This document shows, in pieces, positions 3,168 through 64,000 of a stretch of DNA of 64,000 nt. The stretch's first letter is position 1. Each line of letters opens with the position of its first letter. The stretch comes from Calditrichota bacterium (lineage in GTDB: Bacteria > Calditrichota > Calditrichia > RBG-13-44-9 > J042), in NCBI GenBank assembly GCA_013150955.1, contig JAADJD010000002.1:130705-194704 (forward strand), in the 5' to 3' direction. The position numbers and the translations under genes are program-made. The notes below the pieces were generated by a model. That model searched no databases. It worked only from the letters and a program-made list of their open reading frames with translations, and had not been told where the DNA came from.

Positions 3168-3171
3168 TCGC

Positions 3172-6344: not shown

Positions 6345-6356
6345 AAGGAGAACGTT

Positions 6357-6566: not shown

Positions 6567-6631
6567 ACCTGGAAATCTGCCCCTGAATGGGCGTTAATAT
6601 TTTAAGAACCAAAATGTAGGAGAAGTCGACC

Positions 6632-9234: not shown

Positions 9235-9322
9235 CCGTTTGGCAACAGGGAGATTGTGCCAGATAGCAAATGGGTGGACAGGTTTGCTAATAACGGCTGG
9301 ATCGCGAAAAGGACTTTACCAC

Positions 9323-9354
9323 AAGAAAGGGGATGGGCTGCCATCCCCTTTCTT
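9323..9354 (+). terminator. Candidate terminator after ccm operon
   Basis: Perfect 14-bp stem AAGAAAGGGGATGG-GCTG-CCATCCCCTTTCTT. Confidence 0.7.
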
Positions 9355-9420
9355 AATTTGTTGCGATTCATGAATTTTGAAGAAACCCACCGCATCTTGC
9401 TTTCAACCAAAAAATGCATG

Positions 9421-9589
9421 AAACCCAAATCATGCAATCAACCACGAATCACGTGAATGAATCCTAAAAATATCAATAAAATAGCGATTAAATCCCGGAT
9501 CACATTTTTCACCCGGATATAATCAAACGGATTTTATTGTTTTTGTTCGCGTTAATTCGTGTAATTCGTGGTTTCATGCAGAATCCGGA
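9421..9589. repeat. Dispersed near-palindromic intergenic repeat, copy B
   Basis: AAACCCAAATCATGCAATCAACCACGAATCACGTGAATGAA ... GTTAATTCGTGTAATTCGTGGTTTCATGCAGAATCCGG. Confidence 0.8.
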
Positions 9590-9590
9590 T

Positions 9591-46564: not shown

Positions 46565-46620
46565 ATTTGTTTTCTTTGTGATTATTCGCGTCATTCGCGG
46601 TCGAATGCATTATTTGGGAT
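46565..46620. repeat. Right-half remnant of the dispersed palindromic repeat, copy E
   Basis: GATTATTCGCGTCATTCGCGGTCGAATGCATTATTTGGG. Confidence 0.65.
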
Positions 46621-46773
46621 AAACATTACAGGAAATTCCGGATATCGCAGGGCAGGCACTTCATTGGCGAATTCGAAATATTCCGGGCGAAGGAACAGCG
46701 TCTGGCAATCCTTCTGATGGTTTAAGATAAACCATTTGGGAACCGGTGCAACCGGCTCCGGAGGGAAAAGGAT

Positions 46774-48861
46774 ATGTGCAGTGAAAAGTGTCCATTTTCC
46801 CAGAGTCATGAATGGCCCATCCGGGCGATAGTTGTTGGATTTTTATTGCTTTTTCCAGTGCTTACGCCTGCCCAGATTGTGAAAAACGTACAGATCGTGG
46901 GATTTCTGGATTTAACGCATTTGAGTCCCGGCAATACCATTGGTAATGTGTGGGGGTTTTGTCGCAATGGAAGGGAATACGCGGTGGTGGCCATTACCGA
47001 TGCCGGCGTGGCCATTGTTGACGTCACCGATCCCGCCAATCCCGTAGAAGCCAGCTTTGTTCCCAAACCGCCCAATACCGATCGCCTTTACTATGCGCAG
47101 CCCTACAGCAAAGGCTACGTTTATGCAACCATGCGTCCCGGCCCACTACAAATCATTGATGTGCGTGACCCTTACAATGCAAAGGAAGTGGGGCTTTATT
47201 CTCAAAATTTTACCGAAGCGTACAAACCCTGGGTGGACGAGCTCCGGGAACGACTGTATTTGATCGATACCCAGGGAGGGCCGGCGGGGGTCAGTACCAT
47301 TGTGCTGGACATTTCCAATCCCACCCAACCGGTCGAAGTGGGCACCTATGGGGTGGGCTACCATCACATCTACGTGCGTAACGATACCGCTTACGGTTTT
47401 CATTTTAACAAAGGGGTGGATGTACTGGACGTGAGCGATCCCGCTAACATTCAACTCATCATGAATTTTGATCCGCTTTTGCCCAAGACCCACAGTGGCT
47501 GGTTGCACGATAATGGAAAATATTTGACCGTGGATCACGAATACGCACCGGGTGAAGGCCCCGACAGTCTTGGCGGACATTTGCAAATCTGGGATGTTTC
47601 CGCCATGCCAGCGTCCCCAACGTTGCTGGGGCGATATTACACCAGCACCAATCACACGGGACAGGCCTCCCTGCATCATTCGTACTGGTATTTTGATCTC
47701 ATCTACATGTCGTACTGGACGGAAGGGGTACGGATTGTGGATGCTTCGGATCCTCGCAACCCGGTTGAAGTGGGAGTGTACGATTGGGAAGATCCCAATG
47801 TCAGCGGAATTTATCGCGGCATCTGGGGGGTATTTCCCTATCTGCCATCCCGTTACATCCTGGCCTCGTTTCGCACGGCTGGCCTTTACGTACTCGATTA
47901 TAATGGAGATGGGCCGGGGATTCAGCACACGCCGATCGACACGGCAAAAACCGCAACTTCGGCATTAACCGGAGAGTTTACCTGGATCAACGGAGCGCCC
48001 ATCGATGCCTCTGCCAGTTTTGTTTACTGGCGATCGCAGTCCGGGAATAGCTGGAACCAAACCGCCGTTCAGCAAAAAAGCGATTCCACCTACTCCTTTT
48101 CAATCCCCATTGCCCCTGGAATTTCCCGGATTGAATATTACATCGACGTGGCCGATACACTGGGACGCCGGACACGGGCACCCGGCTTAGCGCCGTATCT
48201 GGATTGGTATGAGACCTTCATTAGCAGCGATGCGGCACTACCAGTGGTGATGGTGACTTACACCGCCACCGTCACCGCGGAGGGAATCCAACTTGTCTGG
48301 GAAACAGCCGCCGAGGTGAATCACGCGGGATTCGACATCCTCCGCAAATTGTCCGGTGAAGCGGTGTTTACGGTATTGAGCAGTTACCTGGATAATCCCA
48401 ATTTGCGGGGACGGGGAAATGCTACCCGTGGAAGGCGCTACGCGTTTCTAGATCAGACGGTGGAGAGAGGACAGACCGTTTTCTACCTCATCCGGGCGAT
48501 TGGACTGGATGGATCGATACAGGATTTCGGTCCCTTGCAGGTAAAGTATCCTCTGGAGCCAATTCCAGATAAATTTCAGCTGTTACCGAACTATCCCAAT
48601 CCCTTCAATTCGGGAACTCGATTCCGTTTTCAGCTACCGGTACGTGCGGACGGGAAACATCATGCCATTCAGTTAATCGTTTATGATATAAACGGACGAC
48701 CCGTTGCTACGGTTTTTCAGGGCGAATTGCCACCGGGTGAGCATGTCATCTACTGGGATGGGCGTTCCAATGAAAACGGGTCGATCGCCTCGGGGATTTA
48801 TTTTGCCGTGTTGCGCGCCGCTGGCACCGTACACATCCAGAAAATTACCTGCATTCGATAA
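46774..48861 (+). CDS. Secreted LVIVD-repeat protein with C-terminal sorting domain
   Basis: Repeated VDVTDPANPVEA / LDISNPTQPVEVG / LDVSDPANIQL / VDASDPRNPVEVG units; C-term NYPNPFNSGTRFRFQLP. Confidence 0.85.
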   Translation: MCSEKCPFSQSHEWPIRAIVVGFLLLFPVLTPAQIVKNVQIVGFLDLTHLSPGNTIGNVWGFCRNGREYAVVAITDAGVAIVDVTDPANPVEASFVPKPPNTDRLYYAQPYSKGYVYATMRPGPLQIIDVRDPYNAKEVGLYSQNFTEAYKPWVDELRERLYLIDTQGGPAGVSTIVLDISNPTQPVEVGTYGVGYHHIYVRNDTAYGFHFNKGVDVLDVSDPANIQLIMNFDPLLPKTHSGWLHDNGKYLTVDHEYAPGEGPDSLGGHLQIWDVSAMPASPTLLGRYYTSTNHTGQASLHHSYWYFDLIYMSYWTEGVRIVDASDPRNPVEVGVYDWEDPNVSGIYRGIWGVFPYLPSRYILASFRTAGLYVLDYNGDGPGIQHTPIDTAKTATSALTGEFTWINGAPIDASASFVYWRSQSGNSWNQTAVQQKSDSTYSFSIPIAPGISRIEYYIDVADTLGRRTRAPGLAPYLDWYETFISSDAALPVVMVTYTATVTAEGIQLVWETAAEVNHAGFDILRKLSGEAVFTVLSSYLDNPNLRGRGNATRGRRYAFLDQTVERGQTVFYLIRAIGLDGSIQDFGPLQVKYPLEPIPDKFQLLPNYPNPFNSGTRFRFQLPVRADGKHHAIQLIVYDINGRPVATVFQGELPPGEHVIYWDGRSNENGSIASGIYFAVLRAAGTVHIQKITCIR

Positions 48862-48935
48862 TGAGAAAATCATGAATTGTCTTGTTTAGTCTGACGAATC
48901 CATTAAATTAGCCTTCAAAAACGGATGGTGGAGCG

Positions 48936-50141
48936 GTGACGGGTTACTCGACACGCATATCTGTAGCCCCGGATGGCTCCCGAACCTCGCTGAGCGAGCG
49001 GAAGAAAATTGGGCGATTGGGGGGCTGGATTAGCATCGGGGTGAATGTTCTCCTGTTCGGGATAAAAGTGGTGGTGGCGATCATTTCGGGTAGCCTGGCC
49101 CTGCTGGCGGACGCGATTCACACCCTTTCTGATGTCACTACCTCGATCATTCTGTTAATTTCCATGCGCATTTCCACCAAACCAGGGGATTACAAACATC
49201 CTTTCGGACATGGACGGGCGGAGTATGTTGCTGCTATCATTATTGCCACATTACTGGCCGTTGCCGGATTCGAAATCGCCAAGTACAGTGTGGAGCGGAT
49301 TCTGCAGCCAGTGACGGTGCAGGCCTCCTGGTGGATTATTGGCGTGGTGATTTTAACGATCGGGGTCAAGGAAGCACTGGCTCAATTTTCGCTGCGATTG
49401 GCCCGACGGGCCGGCCTGCCCGTCCTTGAAGCCGATGCCTGGCATCACCGAACGGATGCCATCTCTTCTGCGCTGGTGGTAATCTCCATGATTTTTGCCC
49501 GATTCAACTATCCCCATCTGGATGGCTGGATTGGCCTGTTCATCTCCCTGTTCATTTTTCTGACGGCCTATCGCATTTCTAAAGAATCGATTGATGATTT
49601 AATTGGAACCAAAGCCGATAATGAACTCATCACCCAGGTGGAGAATATTGCTCTCGGCATCAAGGGCGTTCAGGGGGTTCATGATGTGGTGGTGCATAGT
49701 TATGGTCACCAGAAGATCATTTCCCTGCATATCGAAGTGGACGAAGACCTGTCGCTGTGGGAAGCCCATCGGATTTCCGAGAAAGTGGATCGAACCCTTA
49801 AAGATCGGCTGGGCGTCTATTCCACCGTTCATGTGGATCCCGTGATGAAGCGAACGCCGGAATATCAAAAAGTTGAGCAGGTCATTCAGCAATTTTGTGA
49901 ACAACATCCGGGTTGTGAAGGGTACCACGATTTGCGAATCATTAAAGAAAATAATTTCACGAATTTGTATCTGGATCTGGTGCTTGCCAGTACTCCGAAC
50001 AATCACAACGAGGAATCGCTGCTTCTGGAGTGCGAGGAACAGATCCGGGCGCATTTGCCTGAAGTGCATCGCGTGTACATCAAACTGGAGCCCCGATTTA
50101 CCGTATCCCGCCGATCGCGACACAATGACGTGCGGGGGTAA
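48936..50141 (+). CDS. Cation diffusion facilitator family transporter
   Basis: SGSLALLADAIHTLSDVTTSIILL, HPFGHGRAEYVAAI, EADAWHHRTDAISSALVVI; C-terminal cytoplasmic domain. Confidence 0.92.
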   Translation: MTGYSTRISVAPDGSRTSLSERKKIGRLGGWISIGVNVLLFGIKVVVAIISGSLALLADAIHTLSDVTTSIILLISMRISTKPGDYKHPFGHGRAEYVAAIIIATLLAVAGFEIAKYSVERILQPVTVQASWWIIGVVILTIGVKEALAQFSLRLARRAGLPVLEADAWHHRTDAISSALVVISMIFARFNYPHLDGWIGLFISLFIFLTAYRISKESIDDLIGTKADNELITQVENIALGIKGVQGVHDVVVHSYGHQKIISLHIEVDEDLSLWEAHRISEKVDRTLKDRLGVYSTVHVDPVMKRTPEYQKVEQVIQQFCEQHPGCEGYHDLRIIKENNFTNLYLDLVLASTPNNHNEESLLLECEEQIRAHLPEVHRVYIKLEPRFTVSRRSRHNDVRG

Positions 50142-50215
50142 GCCTGTCGCGATGCCTTCCTCTGGAAGGTTTGGGGGTATGGAGTGGAGGATGCAGAAAC
50201 AACAGGCTTACCCCC
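50134..50215 (+). other. Long inverted repeat/structured RNA candidate at the end of the CDF gene
   Basis: GGGGGTAAGCCTGT (50134-50147) pairs perfectly with ACAGGCTTACCCCC (50202-50215); inner hairpin CCTTCC-TCT-GGAAGG; followed by TCTTTAATTTTT. Confidence 0.55.
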
Positions 50216-50266
50216 TCTTTAATTTTTAGTCCCTCCGGAACGATTCTGCAGATCGAAACTCGTTTA

Positions 50267-50570
50267 AACCCAGACTATACATTCGCCTACGAACTACACG
50301 AATGAACACCAATAAAACCAATAAAATACATTGGATTGTTTCTGGATGAAAATGTGTTCCAGTATTTATCCCAAATTATGCTTTAGACCACGAATTGCAC
50401 GAATTAACGCAAATAAAAACAATAAAATCCATTGATTTAGATCTGTATGAAAATTCGCCTCGAGGTTTATTCGTGATTTTATTGATATTTTTTGTGTTCA
50501 TTCGCGTGATTCGCGGTTTAATGCATTATTTGGGTTAATTCGTGGGATTCGTGGTCTGTTACATAATCTG
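50267..50570. repeat. Dispersed near-palindromic intergenic repeat, copy F (composite: left half, complete copy, extra right arm)
   Basis: 50267-50367 left half with core; 50369-50535 complete copy; 50536-50570 additional TTAATTCGTGGGATTCGTGG arm. Confidence 0.8.
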
Positions 50571-50830
50571 ATTTTAAAGTAGAACAGGAATGGAAAAATT
50601 ATCCAGTAATATTAATTATTATTTTTTCTTGAAAACGTCCTTTTGGTCTTTAAATTCTAAAGAAGAAACAAAGAGAAGGTGGATTTTAACCAATTTCATT
50701 GTAGGCATCATCGGGCTATGAATTAACGGAAAAGGTGGGCTGTGTGGAAGCATTGAGTATTGTTGGTTATTCAAACAATCAGTAGAATCTGAAGAATGGG
50801 TCTGAATAAGGTTTTATCAATTTTATCTTA

Positions 50831-50997
50831 AACTCAAATAATGCATTAAGCCACGAATCACACGAATGAACCCAAAAATAGCCACAAAATCGCGAAAAAA
50901 ACCCTAAACACATTTTCATCCGGATCTCATCCAATGGATTTTATTATTTTTGTTCGTGTTCATTCGTGTCATTCGTAGGCTATTGCATAACCTGGGT
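50831..50997. repeat. Dispersed near-palindromic intergenic repeat, copy G
   Basis: AACTCAAATAATGCATTAAGCCACGAATCACACGAATGAA ... TTCATTCGTGTCATTCGTAGGCTATTGCATAACCTGGG. Confidence 0.8.
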
Positions 50998-51096
50998 CAA
51001 ATTTGGAGTTCACTGGAAAATTCAATAGATCCACACCCAGGATCGCGATGAAATTTTTAATGATAGCGGAAAAGAATCATTAAACAGGAGGTATGG

Positions 51097-52299
51097 ATGA
51101 TGAGGCGGCATGTTTATTTTGGGATATTTATTTTGGTGATGACTGGAATTTTCATTCAGTCCGTACAGGCCATTCCCGCATTCGCTCGAAAATACAGTGT
51201 GAGTTGCGTGGCTTGCCATTCCCCCTTTCCAAAATTGACGTCCTTTGGAGAGGATTTTGCAGCAAACGGGTTCACCATGCCAGGCCCGGAACCGACACAC
51301 ACCGTGGTAAATACCGGTGATGAAACGTTGCTATTGCAGCGAACGTTGCCATTGGCTCTGCGTCTGGATGGATTTATTCACTTTTCAGACAGGGGGGATT
51401 CTACCCGAAGGGGAAAGGATTTGCAAACCCCTTACATTCTAAAAGTTTTCTCCGGTGGGCCGGTTAGCAAACATGTGTCCTATTATTTCTATTTCTTTTT
51501 CTCCGAAAGGGGAGAAGTTGCCGGGATTGAAGATGCCTACTTGCATTTTAACAATCTTTTTGGACAGCCACTGGATATTCTGGTTGGTCAATTTCAGGTA
51601 TCAGATCCCATGTACAAACGGGAGCTGCGATTGACTTTTGAAGATTACATGATTTACAAGAAGCGGGTTGGAGCGGTTCCCACCAATCTCACTTACGATC
51701 GGGGATTGCTGATTAATTACACTGCGCCATGGGGAAGTGATTTTTTCCTGGAAATTGTGAATGGAAATGGGAAAGAACCGGCGGATGAATACCGTCAATT
51801 CGATAATGATGATTACAAAAATTATGCCCTGCGCTGGACCCATGAATTCGACTGGCTGCGATTGGGGGCGTTTGGATTCTGGGGGTTAACAGAAGATGTC
51901 AGGGCAAAACGCACCAACTGGATGGAGATGTTTGGTCCCGATGCGACCCTGAATGTGGGGCCCCTGGAAATCAATATGCAGTATTTGATTCGCCGGGACG
52001 ACAATCCCTTTTACAGCCCGCGCAAACCCGCTGAAAAGATTGAGACCCGTGGAGGCTTGGTGGAAGTGATTTATTCCCCGAAGGCCAGCCAGAGCAAATG
52101 GTATGTGATTGGCCTGTATAACAAAATCACTTCGAATATTCAGGATGTTTATCCGGAGGCCAAAAGCCTGGAATACGAAACAGCGTGTGTCAACTGCACC
52201 TATCTGCTGGCTCGCAATCTCCGCTTAACCGTCGAATATCGGCACGATCTGATCCACAATGAAAATCGATTGACCCTGGGGGTGGTTAGCGCATTTTAA
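51097..52299 (+). CDS. Outer-membrane-like protein with N-terminal CxxCH heme c-binding motif
   Basis: Signal peptide; FARKYSVSCVACHSPFPKL near N-terminus; rest has beta-barrel-like alternating pattern ending TLGVVSAF. Confidence 0.7.
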   Translation: MMRRHVYFGIFILVMTGIFIQSVQAIPAFARKYSVSCVACHSPFPKLTSFGEDFAANGFTMPGPEPTHTVVNTGDETLLLQRTLPLALRLDGFIHFSDRGDSTRRGKDLQTPYILKVFSGGPVSKHVSYYFYFFFSERGEVAGIEDAYLHFNNLFGQPLDILVGQFQVSDPMYKRELRLTFEDYMIYKKRVGAVPTNLTYDRGLLINYTAPWGSDFFLEIVNGNGKEPADEYRQFDNDDYKNYALRWTHEFDWLRLGAFGFWGLTEDVRAKRTNWMEMFGPDATLNVGPLEINMQYLIRRDDNPFYSPRKPAEKIETRGGLVEVIYSPKASQSKWYVIGLYNKITSNIQDVYPEAKSLEYETACVNCTYLLARNLRLTVEYRHDLIHNENRLTLGVVSAF

Positions 52300-52327
52300 A
52301 CGCCGGGGAAAAAGGATGAATTTTAGA

Positions 52328-52362
52328 GGGGGACGGATATGTAACATCCGCCCCCCTTTTTT
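52328..52362 (+). terminator. Candidate rho-independent terminator
   Basis: GGGGGACGGAT-ATGTAAC-ATCCGCCCCCC followed by TTTTTT. Confidence 0.75.
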
Positions 52363-52404
52363 ACCTGCTGGAACGCTAATTTCAAATTGGGGCTAATCAT
52401 TTTA

Positions 52405-52573
52405 ATCCCAAATAATGCATTAAACCGCGAATCTCGCGAATGAATCCGAAAAATATACACAAAATCGTTAATATCTCCCGGAACACATTTTCATCCAGAT
52501 AGAGTCAAACGTATTTTATGATTTCTTTTGTGATTATTCGTGTAATTCGTAGGTTAACACATAATCTGGGTTT
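52405..52573. repeat. Dispersed near-palindromic intergenic repeat, copy H
   Basis: AATCCCAAATAATGCATTAAACCGCGAATCTCGCGAATGAATC ... GGAACACATTTTCATCCAGAT ... ATTATTCGTGTAATTCGTAGGTTAACACATAATCTGGG. Confidence 0.8.
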
Positions 52574-52840
52574 AAAGAACATTTCAACACCCGCTGTTAT
52601 GCTTCCATAAAGCTTTAGCCAATGTGTTCCTTCCCCAGTCGATAAGACAAATTGTGGCCGTTCCTGGAGTCACTTGGTGTTGTTGTGACGAGGACCGTTG
52701 GGGATATTTTGGAATCATCTTGCTAAACATGTAAAATCCCAATAATTTGTTTTACAAAACGTTCCTGGATGAATTCGAATTCGTTTAAACTTTTGGGGTG
52801 TTTGGGCGTAAAGCAATTAAACGAATGAAGGAGGAGGAAA

Positions 52841-53236
52841 ATGGACAGTAAATTTGAGCAGGTGAAACAGTATTTGTTAGATATGGACGTCCGAATTGTG
52901 GAAGAAAATCCTGCAGAGGAACTGGTGGTGGTAGAGGATGAAGACCGGGGCATAAAGAATCTGGTGATCGATTGTGAGGCACCGATTTTAATTCTGGAAC
53001 AGTTTATTATGGAAGTGCCATCGGAGCCGGGCGATTTGTTTAAAAAACTGCTGCAGTGGAATCGCCAGCTGGTCCACGGTGCTTTTGTGATGGATGAGGA
53101 AGGGAAATACATCTTTTTCCGGGACACCCTTCAACTGGAACATCTGGATTTCAACGAGCTGGAAGCCTCCATTGAAGCCTTATCCCTTGCCATGGCCGAA
53201 TTTGGCTCCCAATTACTGGAATTCATGAAAAAATAA
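52841..53236 (+). CDS. YbjN/CesT (type III secretion chaperone-like) fold small protein
   Basis: 131 aa acidic protein, LLQWNRQLVHGAFVMDEEGKYIFFRDTLQLEHLDFNELEASIEAL; directly upstream of a pspA-like gene. Confidence 0.55.
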   Translation: MDSKFEQVKQYLLDMDVRIVEENPAEELVVVEDEDRGIKNLVIDCEAPILILEQFIMEVPSEPGDLFKKLLQWNRQLVHGAFVMDEEGKYIFFRDTLQLEHLDFNELEASIEALSLAMAEFGSQLLEFMKK

Positions 53237-53257
53237 GAAAAAGCGAGGAGGTTTGTA

Positions 53258-53962
53258 ATGGGATTGTTTCAGCGGATATTTAAAATTGTTCAGGCAGAAA
53301 GCCATTCCGTAGTGGAGAAATTAGAAGACCCGATAAAGATGACCGAACAGGGCATTCGGGATTTAAAGAAGAGTCTGTCAGAGTCCATGAGAAGCCTGGC
53401 CGAGGTGAAAGCGATTGCCATCCGGCTTAAGAAAGATGCGGAAGATCAGAAAAAAATGGCTGCCGATTACGAGCGAAAGGCCATGCTGCTGTTGCAGAAG
53501 ATGAAAAATGGTGAACTGGATGCGGCCGAAGCGGAGCGACTGGCTACCGAGGCACTGGCCAAAAAAGAGGAGGCACTGGAACGCGCCAATACCTTGATGG
53601 CCGAACATCGCCAGCAGAAAAAATTGGCCGATCAACTGCAGGTGAAAGTTGAGAAACTCAAACAAATGATTGCGAAATACGAAAATGAGTTGATTACCCT
53701 GAAAGCCAGAGCGCGAACGGCCCAGTCCATGCGGAAGATCAATCAACAGATGTCCAAACTGGACACTTCCAGCACCATTGCCATGCTGGAAAAAATGAAG
53801 ACAAAAGTTATTGAAGAAGAGTCCCTGGCAGAAGCCTATGGAGAAATTGCCGAAACGAGCACGTCGGTGGATGAAGAGATCGACGAAGTGCTGTCCACTC
53901 CATCCAAGGCCAAAGCGTCGGAATCGCTGGAAGAATTGAAGAAAAAGATGGGCATTCAATAA
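53258..53962 (+). CDS. PspA/IM30 family protein
   Basis: MGLFQRIFKIVQAESHSVVEKLEDPIKMTEQGIRDLKKSL followed by a long coiled coil. Confidence 0.9.
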   Translation: MGLFQRIFKIVQAESHSVVEKLEDPIKMTEQGIRDLKKSLSESMRSLAEVKAIAIRLKKDAEDQKKMAADYERKAMLLLQKMKNGELDAAEAERLATEALAKKEEALERANTLMAEHRQQKKLADQLQVKVEKLKQMIAKYENELITLKARARTAQSMRKINQQMSKLDTSSTIAMLEKMKTKVIEEESLAEAYGEIAETSTSVDEEIDEVLSTPSKAKASESLEELKKKMGIQ

Positions 53963-54049
53963 AACACTCATTAGAATACCCAGGCCCTGGAGCCATCTCC
54001 AGGGCAAATGCATTTTAAAGGATCAAACCCTATCCGTACCGGCTGTTTA

Positions 54050-54212
54050 ATCTAAATCATACTTTAAACCGCGAATCACGCGAAAGAATCCGAAAAATAT
54101 CAACAAACCGGAACACATTTTCATCCAGATATAGTCATGAATATTTTTTTGTGATCATTCGTGTAATTCGTGTGTCATTCGTGTCATTCGTGGTTTTTGG
54201 CTTAATTTAGAA
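54050..54212. repeat. Dispersed near-palindromic intergenic repeat, copy I
   Basis: AATCATACTTTAAACCGCGAATCACGCGAAAGAATC ... GGAACACATTTTCATCCAGATATAGTCA ... TTCGTGTCATTCGTGGTTTTTGGCTTAATTTAG. Confidence 0.75.
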
Positions 54213-54362
54213 CAAAATTTGATCCCCGGGAGAAAAAAGTCTTGATTATTTAATCGAAAATTTTAAATTAAGAACAGCATTTCTTTCAGGGACTCGCATC
54301 AGATGATCGGGCAGGCGGGAAGCGTGTACCAATAAATATGCAATAAAACATGGACGTATGGT

Positions 54363-55265
54363 ATGCACGTAGCCAAGTTTGAGTTTGTTCTTCAAACATT
54401 GAGCTCATTTGCCCTGCCAGAATTCAAAGGGTCGACTTTCCGGGGCAAATTTGGACATGTTCTAAAGAAAACCATCTGTGTATTTTCCCACAAATCATGC
54501 GATGCTTGCGAGCTTCAATCGCGGTGTCCCTACATCTATCTCTTCCAATCAAAAAATCAAAAAAATGAGGAAACCGTACGTCCCTTTGTGCTGGAACCCC
54601 CATTGACAAAAAAGCCTTATTTCCTTCGTAATGAGAAGATGTATCTGAATTTAATACTGATCGGCAAGGCTATCGATTATCTTCCCTATTTTGTGTATTG
54701 TTTTCAGCGGATGGGGAAGGAGGGAATTGGTCGCGATGCCGGAAAATTCTCGCTGGAAGAGGTACGAGCGGTATCCGCAGATGGAAAAAAGCAACGGGTA
54801 TTTCATATCGGTGACCAGGTGCTGGTGCATCATGTTCCCCGAATTGAACTGGATGCGTTTCGAGCCCAGCTCCTTCCTCAGGCCACCTTACAATTTCTAA
54901 CCCCGACGTGTATTAAGCAAAATGGAAAAGTTGTGGAGCAATTAACATTTTCCGTCTTACTGAAGGCCATATTACGGCGGTACCACCGGTTACGCTTTAA
55001 CCATGATGATGGGCAGCGGGAAGATTTTAGTATAGATTGGGAAGCCGCAGAAAGGATTGCGGTCGTCCACCAGGAAATTGAATTTCAACGTTTTCGCCGA
55101 TATTCCAACCGCCAGGGCCGACCGGTACCCATGGAGGGATTTGTAGGTAAAGTAATTTTCCGGGGAAATCTAACCCCATTTTACCCCTGGCTAAAAATTG
55201 GGGAGTACCTGCACATTGGCAAAGGCGCCACCTTTGGGATGGGGTGGTACCGGGTGGTGGGGTAG
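54363..55265 (+). CDS. cas6: CRISPR pre-crRNA processing endoribonuclease, Cas6 family
   Basis: FALPEFKGSTFRGKFGHVLKKTICVF, CxxCxxxxxCPY segment, C-terminal RAMP glycine-rich HIGKGATFGMGWYRVVG; heads a cmr operon. Confidence 0.85.
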   Translation: MHVAKFEFVLQTLSSFALPEFKGSTFRGKFGHVLKKTICVFSHKSCDACELQSRCPYIYLFQSKNQKNEETVRPFVLEPPLTKKPYFLRNEKMYLNLILIGKAIDYLPYFVYCFQRMGKEGIGRDAGKFSLEEVRAVSADGKKQRVFHIGDQVLVHHVPRIELDAFRAQLLPQATLQFLTPTCIKQNGKVVEQLTFSVLLKAILRRYHRLRFNHDDGQREDFSIDWEAAERIAVVHQEIEFQRFRRYSNRQGRPVPMEGFVGKVIFRGNLTPFYPWLKIGEYLHIGKGATFGMGWYRVVG

Positions 55266-55337: not shown

Positions 55338-56702
55338 ATGATCCACAAAATCACTTTCGAATGCGAAACCATTACCCCGATGTTTTTAGCGGGGGCAGAT
55401 GGGAGGACGCCGGAATTGCGGGCACCATCTATAAAAGGTGCACTGCGTTTCTGGTGGCGGGCTATGAATGGGCATTTGCCTCTGGAAGAATTGAGAAAAA
55501 AAGAGGCAAGTATTTTTGGTGGAGTAGGGGATAAAGAAGGCAAGAGTGAAATTTCAATTATTGTTTCATCAAAGGAAGATCGGAACTCTTTTGGGTCTAA
55601 TTTAAGATCAGATTTGCGTTTAAATTGGAGATTTGCCGGGGGGAAATTACAAGGGCCTCATGCGGGAATAGGTTACCTGCTTTATTCAACAATTCTTTCT
55701 AATAGAGAACGACCCTATTTCAAACCACCTCAAAATTCCAGGCCTGGATTTCAATTTATTTTACAATTTTGTGCTTTAGAAAAAAAGTTTTTAATTCAAA
55801 CAATATCTGCCTTTTGGGTACTTACATTTCTTGGCGGATTGGGTACCCGCTCCCGAAGAGGAGGGGGGAATTTTATTATTAAAAATGTTAATGATGGGAA
55901 CCATCTAATTTCAGAACTGGGAATTGATTTCATCCCCGATCAAATGGATGCTAGTGCTTTTGTACAATGGTTCTTAAAAAATTTTCAAAAAGTAAAGAAT
56001 ATAATTAATGAGAAAAAACCAACGGATTTTGTTAGCGAATATTCCAATTTAAGTATTAGCCGTTTTATTTTATCGAAAGACCGCTTTCCAGACTGGATTG
56101 CGGCGTTAAATGATATCGGTGAAAAATATCAGGAGTTTCGGTTCAAACACCGGAGTGATATTTTTGATACTGGAGTTTTTGGGTTACCTATAGTGCATCG
56201 AAGAGGTCGATTAAAAGTGCAAGGGAAATACAACAGAGAGCAAATTAAAAGACGATCTTCCCCCTTAATTTTTAAAATTGTTCGATTGGAAGAAAATCTT
56301 TATTATTGGATGGTACTTCGTTTAGCCGGTGAATTTTTACCGCCAGGTGGGGTCATTCAGGCCAATGGTACTCGAAAGCCGGATTACCGGCTAATTGATC
56401 AATTCTGGAATGAATTAAAGAGTGTGGGCACTGAATATCTTCTGAATATTCCTGACATTTTTAAGAAAAAATTGGAAATAATTAAAGAAAATTTGGCACC
56501 ATCAGAAATAATCTTATTTGGTTCAAGAGCGCGAGGAGATTTTCACAGGACTTCGGATATTGATATTGCCGTAAGGACAAAAGAAAATATTGAGGGTATT
56601 GATCTGAATGGTGCGTTAGATGTGGTCGATCTTTCCACTGCCAGTGATTCCCTTTTAAAAATTATAATACGCGAAGGAGTCAGATTATATGAATCCCCGT
56701 GA
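55338..56702 (+). CDS. cmr1: Type III-B RAMP protein Cmr1 fused at the C-terminus to an MNT (MntA-like) nucleotidyltransferase domain
   Basis: Cmr1 part: FECETITPMFLAGADGRTPELRAPSIKGALRFWWRAMNGHL, RSSPLIFKIVRLEENLYYWMVLRLAGEFLPPGG; MNT part: EIILFGSRARGDFHRTSDIDIAV (GSx10DxD, 56520-56564); one uninterrupted ORF. Confidence 0.9.
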   Translation: MIHKITFECETITPMFLAGADGRTPELRAPSIKGALRFWWRAMNGHLPLEELRKKEASIFGGVGDKEGKSEISIIVSSKEDRNSFGSNLRSDLRLNWRFAGGKLQGPHAGIGYLLYSTILSNRERPYFKPPQNSRPGFQFILQFCALEKKFLIQTISAFWVLTFLGGLGTRSRRGGGNFIIKNVNDGNHLISELGIDFIPDQMDASAFVQWFLKNFQKVKNIINEKKPTDFVSEYSNLSISRFILSKDRFPDWIAALNDIGEKYQEFRFKHRSDIFDTGVFGLPIVHRRGRLKVQGKYNREQIKRRSSPLIFKIVRLEENLYYWMVLRLAGEFLPPGGVIQANGTRKPDYRLIDQFWNELKSVGTEYLLNIPDIFKKKLEIIKENLAPSEIILFGSRARGDFHRTSDIDIAVRTKENIEGIDLNGALDVVDLSTASDSLLKIIIREGVRLYESP

Positions 56703-57087
56703 AAGGGTTTTCCGCTATTATCAGGATTATAAAAGGGCCGTTGAAAATTTGGGAATTGCAGTTCGAACAGCAAAGGATGATCTGGGCATTGATGGGACAA
56801 TTAAACGATTCGAATTGTGTTATGAATTGGCCTGGAAGTTAATTAAAGAAGTGTTGGCTGACCGTGGGATTATTTGTAAAAATCCTCGTGATTGTTTTAA
56901 AGAAGCATTTAATAATAAACTTATCGATGATCAGGAGCGCTGGCTGGATATGATTAAAGACAGGAATTTGTTAGTGCATACTTATGACGCTTCGATTTCC
57001 AGAGAAGTTTTCCAACATATTGAGGAAAAATATTTACCAGCTTTTTTGTATCTAAACAATCAAGTGAAAAAAGAATTGAATGAGTAA
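56689..57087 (+). CDS. HEPN-domain protein, HepT/HI0074 family (toxin / nucleotidyltransferase substrate-binding protein)
   Basis: ELCYELAWKLIKEVLADRG...CFKEAFNNKLIDDQERWLDMIKDRNLLVHTYD; Rx4HxY motif RNLLVHTY at 56962-56985; start overlaps the cmr1-MNT stop by 14 nt. Confidence 0.88.
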   Translation: MNPRERVFRYYQDYKRAVENLGIAVRTAKDDLGIDGTIKRFELCYELAWKLIKEVLADRGIICKNPRDCFKEAFNNKLIDDQERWLDMIKDRNLLVHTYDASISREVFQHIEEKYLPAFLYLNNQVKKELNE

Positions 57088-57123
57088 AATGCATAATTAT
57101 TTACGTTATTGAGGGTTATTGCA

Positions 57124-60100
57124 ATGAAAGATGCGATTATTCAGCAAAAAATCAAAGCATATCTTCACGACCCGATTCACAAAGCACTGATATTGATGCA
57201 AATGGATAAAACACATGAAGAAGTGGCTCAGGAACTGGCCAGTATTGTAGGAATCTCTCTATCAGAAGTTCACGATGTCGATCTGGCTGATCAACTGGCT
57301 TCAGCTGCCGACCGGTTTATTTTTCCCGGGGACCGCGAATTTATGGCCAAATTTCTGGAACAGCCTATTTTAACGCATCCATTTTCTGGAGTCCAAAAAG
57401 ATTTTACGGAGCAATTAAAGACGTATTCAGCAAATGAGCTTATTTCCGAAACGGAAAAGGCCATTCGAAGAACGTTGGAGACCTATCAAAATTATTTAAA
57501 CGAACTATCATCTAACAAAGAAAAAAATGCTTTACTCTACTGGCTACTCTGGCGTCGATACAATGAAGATGTGCAAAAACAATTAACTACCCCTTCTTTA
57601 AAAGCAATCTGGCCCTTTTTACCTGCGGATACCCGAATACCCGACCATAGCCTCTGGAATCATCTAAAAGTAACGGCCGCATTGTCCGCCTGTGTTGCAG
57701 AAAGAGGAAATGTGAATAAGCAGGATTGGATTGATGCAGCATTTTTATTGTTTTCTATCGGACCAGTACAAAGTTTTATCAGTACAGCCAGAAAGACTAT
57801 TGATCACTGGATGGGATCGTTTTTGCTTTCGTATTTAACCTTTACTGCTATGCAAGCGGTGTTCGAAGAAATCGGCGCGGATGCGATTATTTTCCCCGAA
57901 CTTTATGGGCAGCCGTTTATGGATGCATATCTGTTTAACCGTTATCCAGAAATTTTTGAAGAATACCAACCAAACAGAGAACAATTGTTAACTCCCAGTC
58001 TGCCCAACCGATTTCTGGCAATCGTACCTACTGGACTGGCAGAGGAACTGGCAAGAAACGCTGAAAAAGCGGTGAAAAAAGAATGGGGAAATATTTGGAA
58101 TGCGGGAAAGCATTATTTTGAAGAAAGGATTGGTATACAACAAACGAAATATTGGAATCACCTCTGGGAACGCCAATGCACCGATTATTTTGAAATCTAC
58201 TGGCTGGTACTGCCCTGGAAAAAGTCGTTTCAGGAACAGAGTGAATTTTATCGACGTTTTATATCATCAGAATCTCCCGTTGAACTTAAAGAGCCAAAAA
58301 TATGGGAAAAGGTTCAGAAATTTTATAATCTCAAATTATATGAACATCCCTCTAATCTTGCGCTGGCCTATCCGTTGATTTATGAACTGGCTGAGCATCT
58401 ATTTGGTGCCCGTAAAAATCTGCGGTATTATCAGCCGTCATTGAATCGAGGCGAACCTTCTTTTAAATGCCACCTTTGCGGTGAACGGGAAGTATTGCAT
58501 GTGGAGGAACCTAAAATACCCGGATATTTCCAGCAGTTTGATGGCATAATTACCCATCAAAAGGATGGAGAAAAGTTTTATCGCGGAAAAGATGGCTGGC
58601 AACATATACAAACCTTCTGGAAAGAGCTGATTCTGGGGAAAATCGACGAGAAACCTCAAGCAAAAATTCGCAAATTTTTTAAAGAAAATGAGCGCCTGTG
58701 TGCGGTGTGCGCCAGCAAGCGGGTGGCCGAATTTTACCTGCAGAAGCAATTCCAATCCATGAACATCTCCGTGCCAGAAGTGGCATTTAACTATCCCTCC
58801 ACCGCCGAAATAGCAGGACTACCCTTCAAGGAGCAGATTTTACATCAGGCCGAGGATGCGCCGGGTGTTTTGGATGATTTTCTGGAAAAATTGAAAGGTC
58901 TGCAGGAAAATGCCGCTGAAGAAAAATTCTATTTTCAAACCTTCGCAGTGCCGGCGTTAATGAAGCGGACAGCAAATAAGCCTTCCCTGCAGGACTTTGC
59001 GAAAATTGACAGCAGTTTCCTGTTGAATTTGCTGAATCAGGAAACCGGTGACGAGGTTCAGGACGATTTGGATAAAGGCACCAATGTATTAACAGAGATT
59101 CGAGAATCGTTCCGGAAACTTACGGAGGTGCTTCAGGTTTCTCCTTCCCGCCTCTCCCGCTATTATTGTTATCTGGCCATGGATGGCGATAAGATGGGGG
59201 AGTGGGTGGCGGGAAAACGCCTGCCGCAGTTTCAGGAAGTGATTCATCCTAAAATTGTAGAGCAGATAAAAAATGCTACAGAGGAGCGTACAAAAAAAAT
59301 AGCCCATATATTAACAGAGAGACGCCGGATTACTCCTTCCATTCACAGCATGATCAGTTCCGTACAAAATCAATTTGCTGTGACTGTTGCGCGGCAGGTG
59401 GTGGAGGAACAGCACCGGGGTAAGCTGGTTTATGCCGGTGGGGATGATGTGTTAGCCATGGTGCCGGTAGCGGATGCTCTCAGTTTGGCGCATCATCTGC
59501 GGCTGGCTTTTTCGGGATATACTGAACAGATTGAGAAGGCGGCTGGTTGGGTGGCAGAAAAAGATGGCTGGCAAATGCGCTTTGGTCATACTGCTACGGC
59601 TTCCCTGGGGTTAGTCATTGCCCATCACACCACGCCCATGCGGCAGGTGATTGCCCAGGCTCAGAAAATGGAGAAAAAAGCCAAAGCATTTGGTCGGAAT
59701 GCACTGGGAATCGCTTTGTTGAAACGCAGCGGTGAAATTGTACAAACAATTGTTCCTTTTCATCCGGAAAAAGAAACAACTCCAGATTTTGTGAACGATG
59801 TTTTGATACCCATGTATAACTGGATTGTGAACGATGTGGTCAGTCGAGATTGGGTATACGTTCTGAAGGCAGAGCAATTGGGTTTTTCGGATGATCAATG
59901 GGAGATGTTTGCTATCGAAATTCGGCGCGTTTTTGAAAGAAAAATTAAAAAGAAAGATAAAAAGAAGGATTTGTTAAAGGAGCTGGACGTTTGGTTGAAT
60001 GTCTTGCAGCAATTATCTAATGAATTGCGGGATCGTTTAGCCAAGCTGGAAACAAAGGAACAGTCTGCACAAAACTCTCACAATCGAATTATCCGTGAAA

Positions 60101-60147
60101 TTTTGAATATGTTTGCCATCGTTGAATTTATGGCAAGGGAGAGTTAG
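57124..60147 (+). CDS. cmr2: Type III-B CRISPR effector large subunit Cmr2 (Cas10)
   Basis: KIKAYLHDPIHKALIL and DQLASAADRF N-terminal blocks; CHLCGERE...CAVCASKR zinc-binding pairs; palm motif KLVYAGGDDVLAMV (GGDD at 59437-59448). Confidence 0.95.
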   Translation: MKDAIIQQKIKAYLHDPIHKALILMQMDKTHEEVAQELASIVGISLSEVHDVDLADQLASAADRFIFPGDREFMAKFLEQPILTHPFSGVQKDFTEQLKTYSANELISETEKAIRRTLETYQNYLNELSSNKEKNALLYWLLWRRYNEDVQKQLTTPSLKAIWPFLPADTRIPDHSLWNHLKVTAALSACVAERGNVNKQDWIDAAFLLFSIGPVQSFISTARKTIDHWMGSFLLSYLTFTAMQAVFEEIGADAIIFPELYGQPFMDAYLFNRYPEIFEEYQPNREQLLTPSLPNRFLAIVPTGLAEELARNAEKAVKKEWGNIWNAGKHYFEERIGIQQTKYWNHLWERQCTDYFEIYWLVLPWKKSFQEQSEFYRRFISSESPVELKEPKIWEKVQKFYNLKLYEHPSNLALAYPLIYELAEHLFGARKNLRYYQPSLNRGEPSFKCHLCGEREVLHVEEPKIPGYFQQFDGIITHQKDGEKFYRGKDGWQHIQTFWKELILGKIDEKPQAKIRKFFKENERLCAVCASKRVAEFYLQKQFQSMNISVPEVAFNYPSTAEIAGLPFKEQILHQAEDAPGVLDDFLEKLKGLQENAAEEKFYFQTFAVPALMKRTANKPSLQDFAKIDSSFLLNLLNQETGDEVQDDLDKGTNVLTEIRESFRKLTEVLQVSPSRLSRYYCYLAMDGDKMGEWVAGKRLPQFQEVIHPKIVEQIKNATEERTKKIAHILTERRRITPSIHSMISSVQNQFAVTVARQVVEEQHRGKLVYAGGDDVLAMVPVADALSLAHHLRLAFSGYTEQIEKAAGWVAEKDGWQMRFGHTATASLGLVIAHHTTPMRQVIAQAQKMEKKAKAFGRNALGIALLKRSGEIVQTIVPFHPEKETTPDFVNDVLIPMYNWIVNDVVSRDWVYVLKAEQLGFSDDQWEMFAIEIRRVFERKIKKKDKKKDLLKELDVWLNVLQQLSNELRDRLAKLETKEQSAQNSHNRIIREILNMFAIVEFMARES

Positions 60148-60151
60148 ACCC

Positions 60152-61309
60152 ATGAAACCGTTTTTTATTGAAGCTATCGATACGTTATTTTTTCGAGATG
60201 GGCGTCCCTTCGAAGTAGGAGGAGAAGCCAATTTGCAAGTCCCCCCAGCACCCTCCACTTTTTATGGAGCGATTCGTTCTGCGTTAATTGCCGCAGGTCG
60301 AGGAGGTCTTGCTGCTTTTAAGAATGGAGGCGAGCACGAATTCAAAGAATGGGTAGGGGAAGACAAAGATTCCGAAGGGTTCACAGCAAGATTAACCATT
60401 AAAGGCCCCTTGTTTGCGCGAAAGATGGGAGCATATATTACCCGTTTCTTCCCGTTACCCCGCGATTTATTAATTTATGAGGAAAAGGAAAAGGTTTTTC
60501 TGGTTCCAACGAAATTAAAACCACTTCCAGAAGACATTGTAACCAATCACAAAATTAAAATGCTATTAATCAATCCTTATTCTCAATCCGCTGAATATCG
60601 AATGTTGTTTCTTTCCGAGAAATTATTTCAAAAATATTTATCTGGAGGAATACAAGAACCCTATGAATTGCATTACGGGGAAGACTTATTAAAAATTGAA
60701 GATGTTTACAAATCCGATTTCCGTGAAGGAGTGTCGTTGAAGACCCGGCAAAAAAATGCTGAAACAGGTCGGTTGTTCACTATGCAGCACATGGCTTTAA
60801 AAAGTGAATCTAACATGCAAATGGGATTTTACGTGGAATGCGAAATACCAGAAGTATTTCAATCCAATACTTTATTACGTCTGGGGGGTGATGGGAAAGT
60901 CGCCCAATTTCAGCCTATTTCTGTCTCTGAAATCGATATGCAAGAAGTGACCACCCAAATAGAAAAGACGAAATTTTTTAAAATATATCTGGCTACTCCG
61001 GCTATATTCGAACTGGGAGATATTTCTCAAGCTATGTTTAATAAATCGTTTGATGACAGCCCTGGCCTTGAGTTTGAATTAATTACTGCAGCATTGGGTC
61101 GGGGAGGAATGTATGGGGGATATGATGTGGCAGTAAATGTACCGAAAGTATCTTTCCCGGCAGTGCCGGCAGGTTCGGTTTTTTATTTCAGGTTAATTAA
61201 AGGAAGCGCAGAGCAGGTGCTTCAGGCATTTCATGAGCAATGCATTTCTGATCGTCGAAAAAATCAAGGGTTTGGATATTCATTTGTAGGAGGAATAAAC
61301 CATGTATAA
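60152..61309 (+). CDS. cmr3: Type III-B RAMP protein Cmr3
   Basis: MKPFFIEAIDTLFFRDGRPFEVGGEANLQVPPAPSTFYGAIRSALIA; ORF opens at 60113, start assigned to ATG 60152. Confidence 0.92.
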   Translation: MKPFFIEAIDTLFFRDGRPFEVGGEANLQVPPAPSTFYGAIRSALIAAGRGGLAAFKNGGEHEFKEWVGEDKDSEGFTARLTIKGPLFARKMGAYITRFFPLPRDLLIYEEKEKVFLVPTKLKPLPEDIVTNHKIKMLLINPYSQSAEYRMLFLSEKLFQKYLSGGIQEPYELHYGEDLLKIEDVYKSDFREGVSLKTRQKNAETGRLFTMQHMALKSESNMQMGFYVECEIPEVFQSNTLLRLGGDGKVAQFQPISVSEIDMQEVTTQIEKTKFFKIYLATPAIFELGDISQAMFNKSFDDSPGLEFELITAALGRGGMYGGYDVAVNVPKVSFPAVPAGSVFYFRLIKGSAEQVLQAFHEQCISDRRKNQGFGYSFVGGINHV

Positions 61310-62312
61310 AAAAGCAATGGCCATGTTTATGTTATGTGAGACCAGCGTACACGCTGGTTCGGGATCAGAGCTGGGGATTGTGGATTTGCCCATTCAACGG
61401 GAACGGCATACGGATTACCCGGTGTTTCATTCCAGCAGCATAAAAGGAGCTCTTCGGTTTAATGTAGATCGGGCAACTGCTTTCTGGGAGGCTTTTAAAA
61501 AACAACTAAAGAACGACGAGAACATCTTGCTTTCGAAGGTTTTGGATTCTTCCAGTTTTGTAAACATTTTTGAAGCAGTTTTTGGAGAAAAGCAAGTGAG
61601 TAATGAAAAAGAAAGCTTTGCCGCGGCTATTGCCATTACAGATGGGAGAATCCTGCTCTTCCCAGTAAAATCCTTGAAAGGAACTTTTGCCTACATTACC
61701 TGTTCCTTTGTAATTAATCGCTTAAAACGAGATTTGACTAAAGCTGGTATTGATCTTAATAACATTCCAGAAAAATTGGATGTTAAAGAGGGCAACGCCT
61801 TTGTTTGCAAAGGGTCAAGTGTTGTGGTAAATAATGCGCTTACACTGGAGGAATTTACTTTTCACGCGGAAGAAAAAGAAGAGGTTACTCTACTGGCAGA
61901 AGAACTCGCAATGTCATTGTTACCCAACGATAGTGTATATGATTACCTGAAAAACAAAATTAAAAACTCGCTGGTGGTGCTTAGCGATGACGATTTTAAA
62001 GAGTTTGTTTCCCAGTCCACTGAAGTAGTGGCCCGAATTAAAATTGATGAAAAAACGGGGACGGTAAGTTCAGAAGGGGGAAATCTCTGGTATGAAGAAA
62101 ATTTACCCGCAGAGACAATTTTATATTCACTGATTTTTGCCCAGGATTTAAATGAAGGCGGAAAGAAAAAGGCCAATCTTGAAAATAACTCGGTTTCTGC
62201 CGAAACAGTGTTAACATTTATTAGGCAGGTTATTCCAGAACGGATCCAATTGGGAGGAAATGAAACCATAGGACGGGGAATTTTAGCATTAAAATTTTAT
62301 AATGGAAATTAG
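61302..62312 (+). CDS. cmr4: Type III-B RAMP protein Cmr4
   Basis: ETSVHAGSGSELGIVDLPIQRERHTDYPVFHSSSIKGALRF; C-term IQLGGNETIGRGIL. Confidence 0.94.
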   Translation: MYKKAMAMFMLCETSVHAGSGSELGIVDLPIQRERHTDYPVFHSSSIKGALRFNVDRATAFWEAFKKQLKNDENILLSKVLDSSSFVNIFEAVFGEKQVSNEKESFAAAIAITDGRILLFPVKSLKGTFAYITCSFVINRLKRDLTKAGIDLNNIPEKLDVKEGNAFVCKGSSVVVNNALTLEEFTFHAEEKEEVTLLAEELAMSLLPNDSVYDYLKNKIKNSLVVLSDDDFKEFVSQSTEVVARIKIDEKTGTVSSEGGNLWYEENLPAETILYSLIFAQDLNEGGKKKANLENNSVSAETVLTFIRQVIPERIQLGGNETIGRGILALKFYNGN

Positions 62313-62321
62313 GAGGCAGTC

Positions 62322-62678
62322 ATGGCAGAAAATATTCGTACACTGGAGAATAATAGGGCAAAATTCGCTTTCGAAATGGTACGTGCAGTCAAAGAAAAGA
62401 AAGACGAATACAAAAGCTGGTCAAAGAAAATACCAGTGCTGATTAAGAGTAACGGTTTAGGACAAACATTAGCATTTATGAAGTCCCGGAACAAACCAGA
62501 AACGAATTTAATGCTGGAGCAAATTAAGAATTGGTTAATTCGGAAAAACGAAATTCAACCAAACGAAGATGTGATAAAAAAAATCACTGAAATTGATAGT
62601 TCCATTTATCGGCGCTGGTCACGGGAGACTATTGCTTTATTCAACTGGGTGCGTCGCTTTGCGGATGGATACTTGTAA
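62322..62678 (+). CDS. cmr5: Type III-B small subunit Cmr5
   Basis: 118 aa helical protein between cmr4 and cmr6; NGLGQTLAFMKSR. Confidence 0.88.
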   Translation: MAENIRTLENNRAKFAFEMVRAVKEKKDEYKSWSKKIPVLIKSNGLGQTLAFMKSRNKPETNLMLEQIKNWLIRKNEIQPNEDVIKKITEIDSSIYRRWSRETIALFNWVRRFADGYL

Positions 62679-62719: not shown

Positions 62720-63799
62720 ATGTTAATTATTGTTCCAAAAAATACTTTTAAAGCTCATGAAGGAAAATTAAATCGAGCAGGTTATTATGAAAATTTTTCT
62801 CTCTTATTTCGCCAATATGTACCCTGGCGAAAACCGAATTATAAATTCGATGAACAAAAGTGGCAATATTTTGAACAATTCCATTTTGATGAGAACTTAA
62901 TAAATCAACTTCAGAAAAGAGGAAGCGGTGTTATAAAGACATTTAAAAAATTGGGACTGCCAACCTATCAATTCTCCATGCACACCACCTGGCGGCTCAT
63001 CACCGGTATTGGTGCCAGTAGCTCCCTGGAAGTGGGAATGATTCTGCATCATGTTTATGGCATTCCGTACATTCCCGCCAGTTCGATTAAGGGTTTGCTG
63101 CGGTATTACCTTACCAAAATTGAGCCTGATCCGGAATTGGTGGCTTTATTGGGTAAAGGGGGAGATGAGGAAGGCGAAAAAGGAAAAATCGTTTTCCTGG
63201 ATGCCTTCCCCCAGCCGGAATTTGATATTAGCGTAGATATTATGAATAACCATTATCAGGACTACTACATGGACGATAAACCACCTGCTGATTGGATGGA
63301 TCCCAACCCTATAAAATTTTTAACCGTGAAAAATGCCACGTTTGTATTCCGACTGTTTTCCAATAGCAGAGAGGTTGGAGTAGAAAAATTAGAAGATGTA
63401 GCGCGACAGCTTTCCCAAGCGTTGATCAACCTGGGCATCGGGGCTAAAACTGCAGTCGGGTATGGGCGTATGGAGGGATTTCAACCAATTGCAATAGTTA
63501 ACGATTCCGAGAAACCGGTTCAAGATAAGGAAGAATTTTCTGCACCAACAGCTGAACCCAATATCAATTTTTATGACAATCCGGATGGTACCAGGGAGTA
63601 TTATTTAACTCGCCTGAACATGGCAGAACCTTATTCAGAAAAAGTACAGTGGCTGTTCCAGAAATGGGAACGTGATGAGCAGTGGAAAAACGACCCAGAG
63701 ATTGCAAAAGCATTTTTACCGAAAATAAAAAAGCAAAAAAAGAGCGGTAAGGAAACGCATTTTTACATAGTAATCAAAAGCATATTAAATAAAATATGA
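62720..63799 (+). CDS. cmr6: Type III-B RAMP protein Cmr6
   Basis: TTWRLITGIGASSSLEVGMILHHVYGIPYIPASSIKGLLRYYL; GIGAKTAVGYGRM. Confidence 0.93.
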   Translation: MLIIVPKNTFKAHEGKLNRAGYYENFSLLFRQYVPWRKPNYKFDEQKWQYFEQFHFDENLINQLQKRGSGVIKTFKKLGLPTYQFSMHTTWRLITGIGASSSLEVGMILHHVYGIPYIPASSIKGLLRYYLTKIEPDPELVALLGKGGDEEGEKGKIVFLDAFPQPEFDISVDIMNNHYQDYYMDDKPPADWMDPNPIKFLTVKNATFVFRLFSNSREVGVEKLEDVARQLSQALINLGIGAKTAVGYGRMEGFQPIAIVNDSEKPVQDKEEFSAPTAEPNINFYDNPDGTREYYLTRLNMAEPYSEKVQWLFQKWERDEQWKNDPEIAKAFLPKIKKQKKSGKETHFYIVIKSILNKI

Positions 63800-64000
63800 C
63801 GACATATTTCATTGCGATTGCAACTGGACAAAATGTAGCCAATATCCCCCCAATAATTAATCTTGGGCAGAAGGGTGATAAAATTTTATGGATCATTTCA
63901 GAAACAGCTAATGAAAGAGGCTGGGTAGATGGAAGTAATCGAGTTCTTCAAGAGCGAGGATTTGTTATTATTGATCCGCTTATTGTTGGTGACGACCTTA
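63796..64000 (+). CDS. CARF/DUF1887-like N-terminus, truncated at window edge
   Basis: ATG overlaps the cmr6 TGA (ATGA); hand translation MTTYFIAIATGQNVANIPPIINLGQKGDKILWIISETANERGWVDGSNRVLQERGFVIIDPLIVGDDL, a Rossmann-like N-terminus with a Q-N-xx-N-xxP pattern. Confidence 0.45.
   Translation, partial: MTTYFIAIATGQNVANIPPIINLGQKGDKILWIISETANERGWVDGSNRVLQERGFVIIDPLIVGDDL

Follow-up and report, generated by a model that had tools for sequence, protein, structure and literature searches.

A predicted HEPN/MNT toxin-antitoxin pair with its antitoxin domain fused to Cmr1 in a type III-B CRISPR operon

Within a stretch of 64,000 nucleotides of bacterial DNA (called the window here), the cmr1 gene of a type III-B CRISPR operon runs into an antitoxin-type nucleotidyltransferase (MNT) and is directly followed by a gene for a toxin-type HEPN protein. 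This raises the question whether a toxin-antitoxin pair has been coupled to a CRISPR effector complex and what such a coupling might do. If the proposal made below is true, two defence layers would be joined in a single polypeptide, RNA-guided type III immunity and an AMPylation-controlled toxin-antitoxin system, and the locus would offer a clean setting for asking whether CRISPR complexes control toxins directly.

The fusion gene, its HEPN neighbour and the surrounding operon

The pair sits inside an operon on the plus strand with the gene order cas6, cmr1-mnt, hepn, cas10/cmr2, cmr3, cmr4, cmr5 and cmr6. HMM matches for each gene confirmed the type III-B setting that had been proposed in the preliminary description, and the Cmr gene set is complete at the locus (Cas10/Cmr2, Cmr3, Cmr4, Cmr5, Cmr6 and Cmr1). 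The operon starts with cas6 (54363..55265), coding for the crRNA-processing endoribonuclease (PF10040 1.9e-20; PADLOC Cas6 1.2e-91). Behind the pair lies cas10/cmr2 (57109..60147, with an ATG at 57124 as likely alternative start; TIGR02577 5.7e-83), the product of which has 1012 aa, an HD motif at residue 20 and the GGDD of the palm at residue 777. It is followed by cmr3 (60113..61309; PF09700 1.6e-47), cmr4 (61302..62312; TIGR02580 1.3e-67), cmr5 (62322..62678; PF09701 3.4e-33) and cmr6 (62720..63799; TIGR01898 2.4e-45). A further ORF starting with MTTYFIAIATGQNVANIPPIINLGQKG... (63796..64000, plus strand) overlaps the cmr6 stop by 4 nt and is cut by the contig end; it appears CARF-like by eye only, and its 68-aa fragment had no family match in Pfam or PADLOC. 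The repeats listed for 44-64 kb include no CRISPR array, and the contig ends just past cmr6. Imperfect intergenic repeat families of about 30-90 nt with CACGAAT/ATTCGTG-type elements, which are not a CRISPR array, occur at 46565-54222 of the window.

The fusion gene (55338..56702) encodes 454 aa and has full-length homologues at five other loci (L032, L022, L078, L118 and L148) and in chain I of PDB entry 9z7q. The Cmr1 part comprises residues 1 to about 370 (55338..56447), a boundary taken from the fold model and the unfused homologue L021, and the MNT part residues of about 371-454 (56448..56699). Family matches agree with this division: RAMPs PF03787 at 8-179, TIGR01894 Cmr1 at 9-183 and PADLOC Cmr1 at 6-327, then PF01909 at 376-417 and Polbeta PF18765 at 380-452. 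In the MNT part, which was aligned to S. oneidensis MntA (5yep), the sequence GSRARGDFHRTSDID (residues 395-409; 56520..56564) reads GS, ten residues, DxD and thus holds an intact GSx10DxD motif. D428 (56619..56621) is the third predicted metal-binding Asp and aligns to D71 of S. oneidensis MntA, a residue with a role known from PMC7641770. Coordinates, frame and motif of the in-frame fusion were exact as first described. An AF2 model of the fusion (pLDDT 83.1, pTM 0.87; the AF2 predictions of fusion and HEPN are of monomers only) matched Cmr1 structures first and the MntA structure 7bxo lower down. A free MNT made from an internal start was considered and rejected; candidate starts are a GTG at residue 363 and TTGs at 379 and 386, with no convincing ribosome site.

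The hepn gene (56689..57087, plus strand) overlaps the fusion gene by 14 nt and fills the slot between cmr1 and cmr2, as had been noticed before. Its 132-aa product belongs to the HI0074 branch, with 114.1 bits on PF08780 (cut-off 31.8) and 103.8 bits on TIGR01987 (cut-off 55.8), and contains an exact Rx4HxY motif, RNLLVHTY, at residues 92-99 (56962..56985), of which Y99 is the predicted AMPylation site (PMC7641770, PMC11586414). No CARF family matched this protein. Its AF2 model (pLDDT 93.7) matches the AMPylated HEPN toxin 8xdj with a TM of 0.89 and an rmsd of 1.1. In the window's open frames of at least 100 aa (38,310 residues), GSx10DxD occurs once, in the fusion, and Rx4HxY three times, one of them in the HEPN protein; together with the family-level HMM support, we regard the adjacency of both motifs as not due to chance.

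How closely does this pair resemble known ones? In S. oneidensis and L. pneumophila, the MNT AMPylates the Tyr of Rx4HxY and thereby neutralises the HEPN protein (PMC7641770, PMC11586414). The definition of HEPN/MNT Class I (PMC7641770), a HEPN-clan protein with Rx4HxY and an adjoining nucleotidyltransferase with GSx10DxD, describes both genes of the locus. An MNT of under 150 aa, which is typical and lies outside the search definition in that paper, is not found here, as the MNT makes up the C-terminal domain of the 454-aa fusion protein with Cmr1. The type VII toxin-antitoxin system MntA/HepT of S. oneidensis (SO_3165/SO_3166, PMC7641770) likewise consists of neighbouring genes with GSx10DxD and Rx4HxY and has the third Asp in the aligned position; however, its HepT belongs to PF01934 and its MntA is standalone, whereas the window proteins stay below the curated 60-bit cut-offs of the NCBIfam equivalogs (48.1 bits for the fused MNT on MntA NF047752, 33.9 bits for the HEPN on HepT NF047751). 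Strict HepT/MntA membership was therefore rejected. Of the earlier proposal, the HEPN/MNT toxin-antitoxin pair with a Cmr1-fused antitoxin is well supported by motifs, fold, cassette conservation and the joint decay of HEPN and MNT, but the label 'HepT' was loose for a HEPN of the HI0074-type branch; the suggested coupling of toxin control to effector assembly or target engagement is a hypothesis. The closest solved HEPN by sequence and fold is that of the L. pneumophila HEPN-MNT system (8xdj, 8xeh; PMC11586414), which carries AMP on the Rx4HxY Tyr but has a standalone MNT and no CRISPR link. In that system, RNase activity did not require the Arg and His of Rx4HxY but depended on Gln44 and Glu47 (PMC11586414). 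By our own reading of the alignment, Gln44 (a metal-site residue) and Glu47 correspond to Lys39 and Glu42 in the window HEPN, and its RNase activity is therefore not assured.

The suspicion that a Cmr1-MNT fusion was undescribed falls, because a sequence search of solved structures identified three PDB entries (9z7q, 9z7v and 9z7x) with a protein named 'Cmr1-MntA' by the depositors (chain I of 9z7q, 438 aa). This chain aligns over residues 5-452 of the window fusion (E 1.8e-112), with an intact GSx10DxD and the same full-length architecture. The entries, known here from sequences and names alone, also contain Cas10, Cmr3 and Cmr4 chains, common to 9arw, and thus the fused protein evidently assembles into Cmr. 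Their Cas10 is a shorter chain of 612 aa, whereas that of the window is of 1012 aa with an HD motif. A HEPN profile search found no HEPN-like chain in the three entries, and a literature search found no paper behind 9z7q, 9arw or 'Cmr1-MntA'. The three entries were probably released after 2026-04-08, as they are absent from a fold library with this cut-off date, an argument from absence only. With a homologous complex already solved, work is feasible at once, and the novelty is lower. New in the present analysis are the single clade of CRISPR-linked HEPNs, the joint decay in Brocadia WS118 and the cassette swap between near-matched operons.

Distribution, decay and exchange of the cassette

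The suggested search for Cmr1 homologues with a C-terminal MNT and an adjacent HEPN was carried out by a scan of genome contigs and by fusion-profile searches, in genome samples that represent a fraction of the known species and with several of the loci coming from MAGs. In-frame fusions recur in other phyla, and a fusion unique to the window genome was rejected on this basis. The cmr1-mnt/hepn cassette was found in four bacterial phyla: the window's own (1 of 41 genomes, the window genome only), Caldisericota (L032), Brocadia-type planctomycetes (L022 from Brocadia WS118 and L023 from Brocadia carolinensis, in which cmr1 and cas10 are frameshifted) and the phylum of a Desulfatirhabdium MAG (L118 and L148, from two genomes in the same class). 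A further genome that has it (L078/L119) belongs to the same class as WS118. Neither 398 genomes sampled from the phylum of an Ignavibacterium MAG nor 286 sampled from that of an Omnitrophica MAG contained a full-length fusion. Likewise, searching viral contigs with the HEPN and phage records with the fusion gave no homologue, and plasmids matched the N-terminal Cmr1 region only.

The junction between Cmr1 and MNT is near-constant across fused homologues. GSx10DxD and the third Asp of the MNT as well as Rx4HxY of the HEPN are kept at all six loci with an intact HEPN (window, L032, L023, L078, L118 and L148). The hepn gene lies directly between cmr1-mnt and cas10 in L118, L119, L120 and L148, and the order cas6, cmr1-mnt, hepn, cas10 is repeated in L119; L023 has a second cmr1-like gene between hepn and cas10. 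The cassette accompanies an HD-containing Cas10 in the window, L118 and L119, and the HD motif is also found in L148; in L120, Cas10 starts without an HD domain. This last cassette, from Caldisericota, comes immediately after type I-like cas genes (cas6, cas8-like, cas7 and cas5, named by eye; L120 3392-7494).

Three genes of L023 appear frameshifted (2557-4076, 5995-7370 and 8615-10401), namely cmr1, cas10 and one that by eye resembles a transglycosylase gene and is unrelated to the module; the MNT and HEPN frames are intact. These frameshifts are probably assembly errors, and a decay of the CRISPR genes with a kept toxin-antitoxin pair was set aside because of other apparent frameshifts in the same MAG.

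A natural knock-out was found in Brocadia WS118 (L022). The roughly 130 nt after the cmr1-mnt stop read MRKRVKLFFDDF and, in another frame, DDLGIDDNIKRFDF, and then a stop, which we read as a frameshifted and truncated pseudogene remnant of hepn; the HEPN profile had no other match in this genome. The fused MNT reads GPRARGDFHQTSAID and NIVNL: GS has become GP, the first Asp of DxD has changed to A, and N stands at the position of the third Asp, the one aligned to D71 of S. oneidensis MntA. In the latter enzyme, D71 binds Mg together with D39 and D41 (PMC7641770), and changes of GS and DxD abolish AMPylation in two studied systems (PMC7641770, PMC11586414). This joint decay, seen in one lineage, and the six intact loci tie MNT catalysis to the HEPN partner. 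The decay would also fit an MNT enzyme that lost its HEPN as substrate-binding partner.

Comparison of related operons pointed to movement of the cassette. L119, which carries the module, and L123, which does not, show 80-86% identity in blastn at the beginning of cmr1 and again across the cas10 to cmr6 genes, with no nucleotide match in the approximately 1.6 kb between, which make up the rest of cmr1, the MNT and the HEPN. From this unmatched block flanked by similar operons it follows that the module was exchanged as a unit. L118 and L124 show a similar swap outline at lower identity. In the HEPN tree (made without L148, a later find), the five CRISPR-linked HEPNs included group in a single clade (98/98), apart from 18 standalone PF08780 proteins. 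Many standalone relatives have the MNT first and overlapping genes, in the order of the window. In the tree of the Cmr1 parts, six fused proteins fall into one clade of eight, with the unfused L021 and L092 inside, so that at least two changes between the fused and unfused state are needed; one gain of the fusion with later loss would be compatible with this tree, which is not a proof of it. Cmr1-MNT/HEPN is thus a real, conserved and horizontally moving module. Its natural variants include a locus with HEPN and MNT both dead and near-matched operons that have or lack the cassette, so that toxin control by CRISPR complexes can be tested by comparison and at the bench.

Proposed mechanism and alternative explanations

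We propose a HEPN/MNT toxin-antitoxin pair in which Cmr1 has acquired the antitoxin as a C-terminal extension. The fused MNT would most likely attach AMP to Tyr99 of the HEPN and hold the predicted RNase off. With the antitoxin covalently attached to Cmr1 and the overlapping hepn lying downstream, the safety of the cell would depend on continued production of a Cmr1-MNT that is free to act. If this protein were lost, sabotaged or occupied, newly made HEPN would escape modification, cut RNA and halt the cell. In our view, release of the HEPN would in this way depend on what state the complex is in at its Cmr1 end, where pairing with the target RNA begins. That HEPN and MNT form an AMPylating pair seems quite probable to us, and that such a pair is tethered to the Cmr complex, apart from either trigger, still probable. 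Given an AMPylating pair, we lean towards a Cmr-linked trigger of some kind, about evenly split between target engagement and loss of Cmr1.

With target engagement as the trigger, target RNA bound at the Cmr1/Cmr6 end would block the MNT or shut it off, and unmodified new HEPN would arrest the infected cell, as a second arm of the response without cyclic oligoadenylates. We put this forward tentatively. Cmr1 and Cmr6 cap the 3' end of the crRNA, where target pairing starts (PMC8376896), and the MNT is carried by a subunit at just this place; the HEPN has no CARF domain and therefore needs another switch, and wherever the fusion is intact, the locus is a type III-B effector operon. The Csm6/Csx1 CARF-HEPN effectors are likewise HEPN RNases linked to a type III complex, but are controlled by cyclic oligoadenylates through CARF. 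CARF effectors are also encoded at several cassette loci, however, which may make a second arm unneeded, and an already AMPylated HEPN would need turnover or fresh synthesis. The pair might instead guard the locus, as, with the antitoxin fused to Cmr1, a cell that lost or inactivated its Cmr operon would be poisoned, which would protect the operon from deletion or sabotage. A comparable idea, a CRISPR effector that silences a toxin, is known from CreTA, the guard of type I-B Cascade (PMC12737573), in which toxin and antitoxin are both RNA and the CRISPR type is another one. The antitoxin lies physically within a Cmr subunit with the overlapping hepn directly downstream, the cassette is spread over four phyla yet found in a single sampled genome of the window's phylum, and WS118 has lost both the toxin gene and the active site of the antitoxin. 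All of this is consistent with a guard, but the lack of the cassette in L123, otherwise so similar to L119, argues that it can be exchanged, and a standalone pair would serve addiction equally; a guard, too, is put forward only tentatively.

Alternatively, the pair may be an ordinary toxin-antitoxin passenger, with an MNT that acts as if alone and a fusion that has no regulatory meaning. Ordinary MNT and HEPN motifs and the commonness of standalone PF08780 pairs speak for such a passenger, which we nevertheless consider rather unlikely, as persistence of the fusion with its near-constant junction in four phyla and the position of the fused Cmr1s in one small clade suggest that the tether was selected. 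In a domesticated enzyme, the HEPN would be only the substrate-binding subunit of the MNT, and the pair would modify another target near Cmr1, for example the 3' end of crRNA or target RNA. Nucleotidyltransferase substrate binding gave the PF08780 family its name, and both the location of Cmr1 at the crRNA 3' end and the joint decay in WS118 fit; domesticated HEPNs fused to MNTs, however, typically lose the RNase residues (PMC3710099), whereas Rx4HxY is kept at six of six loci here, and domestication appears improbable. An assembly chimera or frameshift artefact, brought to mind by the apparent frameshifts that split cmr1 and cas10 in the relative L023, is hardly conceivable, since the fusion is in frame in independently assembled genomes from different phyla and also in the PDB, and was rejected for the family as a whole.

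Other MNT and HEPN genes at related loci

Further nucleotidyltransferase and HEPN genes were observed at some of the loci. In L119, a standalone MNT gene (5109-5447) lies 3' of cmr6 with no obvious HEPN partner beside it, and a Csm6-type CARF-HEPN gene, cas1 and cas2 follow further down. A different MNT-HEPN pair occurs at a second cmr locus of Brocadia carolinensis (L089 486-1414): its MNT is encoded separately, its HEPN belongs to PF05168, and both genes immediately precede a truncated cmr1 and an HD-containing Cas10. At L128 (1453-3365), a PF08780 HEPN gene is followed by a 496-aa ORF with the MNT motif near its start.
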